Shown piece by piece: positions 52,452 to 54,942 of a DNA stretch of 64,000 nt. Origin of the DNA: Wenjunlia vitaminophila DSM 41686. GTDB taxonomy: Bacteria > Actinomycetota > Actinomycetes > Streptomycetales > Streptomycetaceae. Below the pieces are notes generated by a model, which did no database searches, was not told where the DNA came from, and saw only the letters and a list, made by a program, of their open reading frames with translations. Where the stretch lies: assembly GCF_000380165.1 (NCBI RefSeq), contig NZ_KB904647.1:188-64187 (forward strand), read 5' to 3'. Each line of letters starts with the position of its first letter. Within the stretch, counting starts at the first letter, position 1. A program made the position numbers and the translations under genes.

Positions 52452-52734
52452 CGAGTGGGTTTCCTTCTGCCATGGTGACGATGAGTAATCGTCAGGGTGG
52501 GTGATCGAACAAACAGTTCGTCACTACTGTTCCTCTCCGTAGGCGCACTACCTCAAACGACTACGGGACAACATGATTTGTTAACGCTCGGTCACCCAAG
52601 AATCGATGACGGAGAGTCACCATGGCGGGTGAGTGAGGCGGGGCGATCTCCGACGGGCCGGGTGTCCACGACCGGGGTCACCCGTGCGGGTGGATTCCGG
52701 TGCACGACCCCTTTCGGCCGCCATGCGCTACGCC
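52452..52734. other. divergent promoter region between DUF4365 gene and marR
   Basis: The region is clearly richer in A/T than its surroundings and has no gene-like frame. It contains the inverted repeat CGAAC-AAACA-GTTCG at about 52505-52519 (resembling, but with a five-base spacer not matching, an actinobacterial LexA box) and CCGTAG (52537-52542) with CTACGG (52561-52566). I see no firm -35/-10 for the minus-strand gene. Confidence 0.5.
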
Positions 52735-52797
52735 TATAGTTAGGAACCTAACCGATAGGTGCCTAATGGATAGGGACCTAATCGACAGGAGCCGATC
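52735..52797 (+). promoter_or_regulatory. marR promoter with four-copy operator-like array
   Basis: TATAGT at 52735-52740 is a good -10, with TTTCGG (52712-52717) as a weak -35 at 17 bases. Four 14-base units follow at exactly 15-base spacing: 52739-52752, 52754-52767, 52769-52782 and 52784-52797. The first is GTTAGG-AA-CCTAAC; the next two keep G-A-TAGG-NN-CCTAAT; the fourth (GACAGG-AG-CCGATC) is degenerate and contains the marR Shine-Dalgarno. Such arrays are typical operator DNA, and MarR proteins usually bind their own promoter. Confidence 0.75.
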
Positions 52798-53343
52798 ATG
52801 CCTCGCTCCCGCCGCTCTCCGCCGCACCCAAACCCGAACGAGGCAAACCGCAGGGAAACCCTCGACTGGATCTTCCAGTCGACGCCCGACCTCAACGTGA
52901 ACGACGCCGAGTTGGGCGCACTGCTCTTTGCCGGATCAGGGCAACTCGTCCGCACGGTCGAGGATCACCTGCACCGATACGGCCTTTCTCCAGGACGGTT
53001 CGCGGTGCTCCTCGCTCTGGGGTCCGCCCCCGGAGGTCAGCGCACCCCCTCCGCGCTCGCCGAACGCATCGCGGTGAGCCGGCCGACCGTGACGGGGATC
53101 GTCGACGGGCTGGTCAACGCCGGGCTGGCGCGCAGATGCGCGGATCCCACCAACCGGCGGAACCAGCCGGTGGCCCTCACCGAAGAGGGACAGCGGCTGA
53201 TCGAGGAGACCGTGCCCGACCACTTCCGCCGACTGGCCGCGGCGGTGGGCAGGTTCAGCCCTGCCGAACGGGAGACCCTTCGCCAAGCCATGGGTCTCAT
53301 CAACCGTTTCGGCGACTTCCTACTCGAGGAGAAAGCACCATGA
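52798..53343 (+). CDS. MarR-family transcriptional regulator
   Basis: A 181-residue dimeric winged-helix regulator: dimerisation helices at both ends and a wHTH with LAERIAVSRPTVTGIVDGLVNAGLARR (about 89-115) followed by ADPTNRRNQPVALTEEG, the usual MarR wing. An N-terminal Pro/Arg-rich segment precedes it. One cysteine (Cys116) sits at the wing base. ATG 52798 with AGGAG upstream inside the fourth repeat unit. Coupled to the DUF3179 gene by an ATGA overlap. Confidence 0.92.
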   Translation: MPRSRRSPPHPNPNEANRRETLDWIFQSTPDLNVNDAELGALLFAGSGQLVRTVEDHLHRYGLSPGRFAVLLALGSAPGGQRTPSALAERIAVSRPTVTGIVDGLVNAGLARRCADPTNRRNQPVALTEEGQRLIEETVPDHFRRLAAAVGRFSPAERETLRQAMGLINRFGDFLLEEKAP

Positions 53344-54497
53344 TGCTCGTGCTGATGTATTCATTAGCGGTGGTGGCCCTCACCATCGGCACAGCCGCGT
53401 TCTACCTCGCGCTGGTACCAGCGTTTCCGGTGTCCTGGCTCTACTACCACTACTTCATCCGCAAGCCCGCGGCCTGGACGCTCCTGGCCGCAGGCGTCGG
53501 AATCGCCGTGTGGGAAACCGTCGATGACGGGTTCCCGCTCTCGATGATCGCTCCGCTGTCCCTGTTGGTGTTGGCGACGTGGCTCACGTACTGGTTCCAC
53601 CAGGACGTGCAGTTCCCGGCCGTTGACTACCCGGAGATGGCGGAGGACCCGCTGAGCCTGCCGCTGCGCGGCGAGATGCAGCTCGCGGTGATCGAGTACG
53701 GCGGGGTGACCAAGGCGTACCCGCTGGACTACGTCATCCACCACCACATCGTCAACGACCGCTTCGGCGACAAGATCGTCTCGCTGACCTACTGCGCCCA
53801 CTGCCGAAGCATCATGCCCTTCGACGTGACCGACATCGGGCCCCTGCTCGTCGGCTCGTTCAAGGACACCAACATGATCGTCGCGGACCGCCGCACCAAG
53901 ACGTTCTTCCAGCAGGCCACGTTCAAGTCGATCATCGGCAAGCTCCACCCGCACACCCTGAAGTTGATCCACTTCCAGGTCCTGTCCTGGACCGACGTCA
54001 GGCGCCTCGACCCCATGCCCCAGGTCGCGAAGGTGACCGAGCGGGACGTCAAGGGGATGGACTTCGCGGTCCCCGGCAGCTACGAGCGGCTCATGTCCAG
54101 CAACCACACCCTGGGCCTGCCGAAGAACCGCCGCGACAACACCTTCCCCCCGCGCACCCGTGTCGTGGGCGTTCTGGAGCCCACCATGCGCCCCTGGTCG
54201 TACCTCCGGAACGAACTGCTCCAGCAGCGCGTGGTGAAGAACGAGGACGGCTTCTACATGGTGGCGGTCAACAGCACCATCAACGCCTTCCAGGGTGAGG
54301 TGGACGGCCACGAGGTGAAACTGGCGATCACCGAGGACCTCCAGCTCAGCGACCGGGCCACCGGCACCGTGTGGGACCTGCGGGGCCACCGCATCCGCGG
54401 TGAACTCCAGTCGAACCTCACCCCCGTCGCCCTGTCCGACGAGTACTGGTTCTCCTGGAAGCTCTACCACCCCGACACCAAGCTCATCCGGTTCTGA
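53340..54497 (+). CDS. DUF3179 membrane protein
   Basis: A 385-residue protein of unknown function. Three hydrophobic segments in the first 90 residues (about 2-24, 44-60, 66-86) precede the DUF3179 domain (about 100-370) with AYPLDYVIHHHIVNDRFGD, a TYCAHC motif (Cys152, Cys155; TYCPLC in relatives), FDVTD and LSWTDVRRLDP. ATG 53340 overlaps the marR stop; ATG 53343 is also possible. Codon 9 (53364-53366) is TTA, the only leucine TTA I could find in the genes of this window. Expression should depend on MarR and, in Streptomyces, on the bldA tRNA. Confidence 0.9.
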   Translation: MMLVLMYSLAVVALTIGTAAFYLALVPAFPVSWLYYHYFIRKPAAWTLLAAGVGIAVWETVDDGFPLSMIAPLSLLVLATWLTYWFHQDVQFPAVDYPEMAEDPLSLPLRGEMQLAVIEYGGVTKAYPLDYVIHHHIVNDRFGDKIVSLTYCAHCRSIMPFDVTDIGPLLVGSFKDTNMIVADRRTKTFFQQATFKSIIGKLHPHTLKLIHFQVLSWTDVRRLDPMPQVAKVTERDVKGMDFAVPGSYERLMSSNHTLGLPKNRRDNTFPPRTRVVGVLEPTMRPWSYLRNELLQQRVVKNEDGFYMVAVNSTINAFQGEVDGHEVKLAITEDLQLSDRATGTVWDLRGHRIRGELQSNLTPVALSDEYWFSWKLYHPDTKLIRF

Positions 54498-54538
54498 CCG
54501 GACACCCTCCCCCTGGGGGTGCACGACGCGAACACGAA

Positions 54539-54574
54539 CAGGGCCCCTACCGATGTCCATCGGTAGGGGCCCTG
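54539..54574. terminator. strong hairpin between DUF3179 gene and tRNA-Val
   Basis: A perfect 17-bp stem (54539-54555 with 54558-54574) with a two-base loop between the plus-strand DUF3179 gene and the minus-strand tRNA-Val. It can terminate both converging transcripts. No U-tract. Confidence 0.85.
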
Positions 54575-54582
54575 CGACAGCG

Positions 54583-54654
54583 TGGGCGATACTGGGATCG
54601 AACCAGTGACCTCTTCGGTGTGAACGAAGCGCTCTCCCGCTGAGCTAATCGCCC
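54583..54654 (-). tRNA. tRNA-Val (anticodon CAC)
   Basis: A complete 72-nucleotide cloverleaf: acceptor GGGCGAT pairing with ATCGCCC, anticodon stem CTTCG/CGAAG around loop TTCACAC, and the TTCGATCC T-arm. The 3' CCA is not encoded. The second copy at 54871-54942 is identical. No variable-arm extension. Confidence 0.95.
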
Positions 54655-54822
54655 TTGACACGCTGAATAATACAGGCCGGGCAGCGCCCGGTCCAAACGC
54701 CTTACCCAGTACGGCTCCCAGGCGTCCGCCGGGTCATCGGCCCGGCACGACCCCCGGTCGAAGCACCCGCGGGAACACCGGCCACCCGAGGAGAGCACCG
54801 CCCCGCGACCGCGCACAACAAC

Positions 54823-54863
54823 GAGGACGGCGGTCCACACATCACGTGCGGACCGCCGCCCTC
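54823..54863 (-). terminator. hairpin downstream of the second tRNA-Val
   Basis: CGGCGGTCC (54828-54836) pairs with GGACCGCCG (54850-54858), extended by GAGG/CCTC after one mismatch; 13-base loop. It lies directly 3' of the minus-strand tRNA at 54871-54942, between the two copies. Confidence 0.65.
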
Positions 54864-54870
54864 ATCCCGG

Positions 54871-54942
54871 TGGGCGATACTGGGATCGAACCAGTGACCT
54901 CTTCGGTGTGAACGAAGCGCTCTCCCGCTGAGCTAATCGCCC
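54871..54942 (-). tRNA. tRNA-Val (anticodon CAC), second copy
   Basis: Identical in sequence to the tRNA-Val at 54583-54654, including the anticodon loop TTCACAC. The 3' genomic sequence after the discriminator A is CCG, so CCA must be added by the nucleotidyltransferase. A terminator-like hairpin between the copies suggests separate transcripts. Confidence 0.95.

Follow-up and report, generated by a model that had tools for sequence, protein, structure and literature searches.

The TTA leucine codons of streptomycetes have been reported to be enriched near gene starts, and the one in adpA is described as having arisen within Streptomycineae and as chiefly responsible for the bldA phenotype (PMC4255298). 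Across 213 Streptomyces species, between 51 and 505 TTA genes are found per genome (mean 177) and most of the codons are poorly conserved; acquired near-orphan genes form a class in which a TTA is expected without any developmental role (PMC10327506). TTA genes can still be expressed in bldA mutants, mostly under high transcription (PMC4932002). On the protein side, DUF3179 includes published selenoprotein forms, which carry a UxxC/T motif (PMC9312934, PMC13188914).

Within the 64-kb stretch of Wenjunlia vitaminophila DNA analysed here (the window), a DUF3179 gene bears a lone TTA codon close to its start and overlaps a marR-family regulator gene. Taken as a whole, the locus is probably an acquired, autorepressed marR-DUF3179 unit, encoding a redox membrane protein, in which the TTA is tolerated. 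The two genes and the start of the second are laid out as follows.

52798..53343, plus strand: marR-family regulator gene, 181 aa (PF12802, E 2.9e-14; PF01047, E 1.1e-8)
53326..53331, plus strand: Shine-Dalgarno sequence GAGGAG, 8 nt before the DUF3179 ATG
53340..54497, plus strand: DUF3179 gene, 385 aa, with an ATGA overlap with marR, three predicted membrane helices and a tandem Rieske-like C-terminal part
53364..53366, plus strand: TTA leucine codon, codon 9 of the DUF3179 gene, read in the sequence; the sole TTA of the window

The DUF3179 gene begins ATG ATG CTC GTG CTG ATG TAT TCA TTA, and the TTA that the preliminary description had placed at position 9 is indeed codon 9 (53364-53366). 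Its further claim, made by eye, that this is the only leucine TTA in 64 kb holds under a computed scan, our own gene calls (about 60 genes) containing no other TTA codon in the window. The start at 53340 is reliable because GAGGAG, the ATGA overlap with the marR stop and the starts of homologues all agree, the latter sharing the start position and having 5-8 residues ahead of the conserved leucine. The nearest downstream starts are GTG codons 11 and 12, which have no Shine-Dalgarno sequence and would shorten the first membrane helix; a start beyond the TTA is thus not indicated, and the in-frame TTA falls inside the translated region of the gene, as is required of a bldA-dependent gene.

Upstream of marR lie two further elements.

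52735..52740, plus strand: possible -10 hexamer TATAGT, weak and with no good -35, seen by eye directly before the array
52741..52795, no strand assigned: four near-palindromic 10-bp units, YAGGNNCCKA, at exact 15-bp steps; putative MarR operator

Both the ATGA overlap and the YAGGNNCCKA units bear out the earlier statement that the DUF3179 gene is coupled to marR behind a four-unit array. Both domains of the regulator score above their curated cut-offs (PF12802, 53.4 bits against 27; PF01047, 35.3 bits against 24.6). The array, with unit starts at 52741, 52756, 52771 and 52786, overlaps the marR start region, and its fourth unit contains the marR Shine-Dalgarno sequence. A consensus promoter scan reported nothing at 52735..52740. 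With TATAGT just ahead of the array and the Shine-Dalgarno sequence inside its final unit, MarR sitting on the array would obstruct its own start. As judged from this arrangement, the array most likely serves an autorepressing MarR as its operator: the protein would bind these 15-bp-spaced units across its own start region and come off in response to a ligand or to stress; DUF3179 would be co-transcribed with marR and translationally coupled to it. MarR operators usually consist of one or two palindromes, less densely arranged than the four units found here.

A search allowing no mismatch found the two-unit pattern of the array nowhere else in the 6.43-Mb genome, and the closest MarR proteins of related genomes, at 36-39% identity, are encoded without such an array. 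The marR-DUF3179 pairing is independently supported, since a Caldilineaceae genome, from another phylum, repeats the adjacency: another MarR gene (PF01047, E 2.9e-14), its product only 25% identical to the MarR described here, lies directly 5' of DUF3179. Among the homologous loci with neighbours listed, that is the only one in which a MarR was recognised directly upstream of DUF3179, and the Mycolicibacterium DUF3179 locus holds no relative of the present MarR. A long perfect palindrome stands in front of the Caldilineaceae marR (L006:3430-3500).

The downstream border of the pair is formed by a hairpin and a tRNA gene.

54539..54574, no strand assigned: perfect 16-bp hairpin, read from the sequence between DUF3179 and tRNA-Val; likely shared terminator
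54582..54654, minus strand: tRNA-Val(CAC), bordering the acquired pair and syntenic in relatives

In eight other genera of the family, the typical order at this locus is thrS, a 415-aa gene, DUF4365, a gene for a DnaQ-like exonuclease (identified by eye from sequence) and tRNA-Val(CAC), continuing in most of those relatives with a second tRNA-Val, ssgB and a CGNR gene; several relatives also have hairpins at the matching place before tRNA-Val. The other genome from this genus likewise has the exonuclease adjoining its DUF4365 gene. In the window, marR-DUF3179 occupies the exact position of the exonuclease, between DUF4365 and tRNA-Val (52452-54581, compared with L119-L127 and L171). No exonuclease remnant, frame-shifted or degraded, was found in the window, and all that the genome retains is a paralogue at another site (G000:C24:35451-36146).

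A DUF3179 homologue is present in just 1 of 298 family genomes, the one studied here, and in 2 of 395 genomes of the class, while homologues occur sporadically in Mycolicibacterium, Chloroflexota, Planctomycetota, Pseudomonadota, Bacteroidota and an archaeal MAG. The nearest belongs to a GC-rich Mycolicibacterium (63% identity), with which the tree also groups the gene (100/97). On these comparisons marR-DUF3179 is an acquired pair, apparently introduced by horizontal transfer, and the incoming two-gene unit replaced the DnaQ-like exonuclease between the DUF4365 gene and tRNA-Val. The DUF3179 gene matches the host in GC3 (0.945, the 66th percentile), so that no recent transfer from a low-GC donor is involved; the low GC of the gene stems from residue choice. 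A viral origin of the pair was rejected, viral contigs containing no relative, as was plasmid carriage, for which only distant DUF3179 homologues of at most 31% identity, mostly haloarchaeal, were found. As to the site itself, the same-genus genome has about 5 kb extra between the exonuclease and tRNA-Val(CAC) (L119:4548-9833); this may be a favoured place for insertions. The tRNA-Val(CAC) genes of the window form a tandem pair about 215 bp apart (54582-54942), and they are paired in most relatives too.

How unusual the TTA is was assessed in a 776-kb sample of the genome. This sample contains 21 TTA codons among 209,671 codons, or 0.10 per 1000 codons, distributed over 19 of 639 genes (3%). 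A window of this size is therefore expected to hold 1.8 TTA genes, with P(at least one) = 0.84, and a single such gene is as expected. The TTA of the DUF3179 gene is real but statistically ordinary, and typical of accessory genes in this genome; of the distinctiveness first attributed to it, the rarity of the codon stands and the special status, with 3% of genes carrying a TTA, does not. The codons are biased in position, 6 of 21 lying within the first 20 codons against 1.3 expected, with the caveat that gene calls in the sample came from a home-made gene finder and some starts, hence some early TTA codons, are possibly wrong.

The host appears equipped to read such a codon in the streptomycete manner. 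Among the tRNA genes examined there is one copy of a bldA-type tRNA-Leu(UAA), whose sequence presumably resembles streptomycete bldA, and the adpA orthologue has a TTA in its interdomain region (L166, RS-L-PEEIGG). Together with ssgB, these two features mark a family of streptomycete type. Because of this tRNA, the TTA in adpA and the enrichment of TTA near starts, bldA-dependent translation of the DUF3179 gene is plausible, and translation is likely to depend at least partly on the bldA tRNA. The TTA at codon 9 would probably lower or delay translation until charged tRNA-Leu(UAA) accumulates, and synthesis of the protein may thereby be put off to late growth. The earlier view that the codon is read by bldA agrees with these features and with its rarity; selection for a developmental gate is unsupported, and a developmental purpose of the TTA is possible but unsupported. 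We propose that the TTA would be a tolerated feature of an accessory gene and not an evolved developmental switch.

Conservation of the codon bears on this proposal. Leucine 9 is kept in nearly all of 23 DUF3179 homologues, but its codon is not: GC-rich relatives use others, such as CTC in Mycolicibacterium xanthum, an Anaerolineae genome has CTG, and no orthologue was found in the 297 other family genomes. The codon also has company: of the seven host-rare codons in the gene, six fall within codons 7-29 (p about 7e-7; 53340-53426), among them the run TAT-TCA-TTA, and for that reason the TTA may belong to a general 5' codon pattern. In the genome sample, rare codons make up 6.0% of codons 2-10 and 1.7% of those beyond codon 50. 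We regard it as a tentative possibility that A/T-rich rare codons are simply favoured at the starts of GC-rich genes and that the TTA has no regulatory meaning; against it, TTA needs a regulated tRNA whereas other rare codons do not, and the other leucine codons do not strengthen the predicted fold of the start region (-30.7 kcal/mol with TTA against -27.6 to -30.2). The same calculation led us to reject mRNA folding as the reason for the TTA.

The preliminary description had the gene gated both by a ligand and by development, a scheme in which selection keeps the TTA and expression needs MarR release together with a developmental tRNA. The marR coupling, the array, the bldA-type tRNA and the TTA in adpA fit it, as does retention of a TTA in a gene with otherwise host-like GC3; the frequency of TTA in codons 2-10, about 14-fold its level beyond codon 100 (on 4 codons), is also above the 3.6-fold excess of rare codons over the gene body. 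The TTA is, however, not conserved, the gene being a near-orphan in its family with distant homologues that use other leucine codons, and the neighbouring rare codons TAT and TCA share its 5' position. We thus consider an evolved dual gate unlikely, and gating of DUF3179 by ligand and development is put forward here only as a hypothesis. Comparably doubtful is the idea that the TTA is a leftover of a low-GC donor, still unreplaced after transfer: the sporadic distribution across phyla, a Chloroflexota homologue that reads TAT TCA CTG at the matching position and the belief that TTA codons arrive with transferred genes (PMC10327506) speak for it, and the host-like GC3 of the rest of the gene and the GC-rich genome of its closest homologue speak against it.

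In the reading that we prefer, an acquired unit in which the TTA is tolerated, the interest shifts to the protein and its CxxC motif.

53793..53804, plus strand: CxxC, C152 and C155, both encoded by TGC; invariant over 23 homologues

The protein matches PF11376 with 202.4 bits (cut-off 27) over profile positions 4-292 of 292 (residues 92-380). Its structure model has a pLDDT of 92.6 (91.5 for the C-terminal part alone), with predicted membrane helices at residues 2-25, 31-63 and 67-85 followed by two similar halves. For the C-terminal part (53628-54494; model m3a47ce44a4fb), the top 45 rows of a second-look aligner are all of Rieske fold. The alignment to NirD covers residues of about 121-217 (94 aligned, rmsd 3.8, Z 7.3), and that to Rieske proteins covers residues 281-370 at Z 5.0-5.6. 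Unrelated proteins appear from Z 3.2, and all these values fall within the range about which the tool warns. Since, in addition, the Foldseek E-values of the Rieske matches are above 0.01 and a Rieske sequence profile matched none of 23 DUF3179 members at E up to 10, the Rieske-like fold is taken as a lead. Sequence search returned no solved structure for the protein, and no account of cluster-less Rieske folds came out of a literature search. The cluster motif CxH-x15-17-CxxH is absent. The distance from H135/H136 (within HHH, 134-136) to C152-x-x-C155 resembles that in Rieske proteins, but neither of these histidines has a Cys two positions ahead of it, so that the first Cys of the motif is missing, as is its last His.

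Four paralogues from other actinobacterial lineages have an in-frame TGA exactly at C152 (W-TGA-PLC against WCPLC; L174:1000-1263, L175:1268-1528, L176:1186-1446, L177:1563-1823), which probably encodes selenocysteine; the protein described here, with TGC at C152, is not itself a selenoprotein. Thiol or selenol redox chemistry is favoured because of these TGA codons and the invariant CxxC, and the product, anchored in the membrane and combining two Rieske-like folds with a CxxC, would probably act as a thiol oxidoreductase. Judged by positive charge, the C-terminal part lies inside, pointing to a domain in the cytoplasm and not outside it; against this stands the resemblance of related DUF3179 proteins to exported lipoproteins. 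Of the envelope redox role proposed earlier, the redox half gains from the selenocysteine position and the external domain is disfavoured by the charge. The most elaborate alternative, that DUF3179 is an unrecognised, cluster-less tandem Rieske-fold family with a CxxC/UxxC redox centre at the cluster site and that the present copy is under a MarR-bldA AND gate, joins the fold lead to the dual gate and is, in combination, improbable.

As a TTA gene, DUF3179 is one more accessory gene on a long list. Of greater use are the acquired gene pair with its local regulation and a lead on the structure and chemistry of DUF3179. From the fold and the selenocysteine position, this family of no known function gains a testable active site, and the marR-adjacent array supplies a clean single-target regulator with which to find a ligand, which in turn would point to the function.

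Compared with the streptomycete bldA/TTA genes, the locus has the familiar lone TTA near the start of an accessory gene, one tRNA-Leu(UAA) and a TTA in adpA, and differs in that the DUF3179 gene has no orthologues in its family. Akin to MarR autorepressors with an adjacent target, it has a palindromic array over the regulator's own start and a likely target in the same operon; unlike them, it has four units at 15-bp steps and genes that overlap on the same strand instead of diverging. Both halves of the model align with NirD and the Rieske-fold ferredoxins (best Z 7.3 and 5.6), from which the protein is set apart by the lack of the CxH/CxxH motif and of any sequence-level match. Finally, it shares PF11376 and a CxxC at the selenocysteine position with the DUF3179 selenoproteins, and departs from them in having Cys in place of selenocysteine; it also has three predicted helices where phylum relatives with readable N-termini mostly have lipoprotein-like signals.
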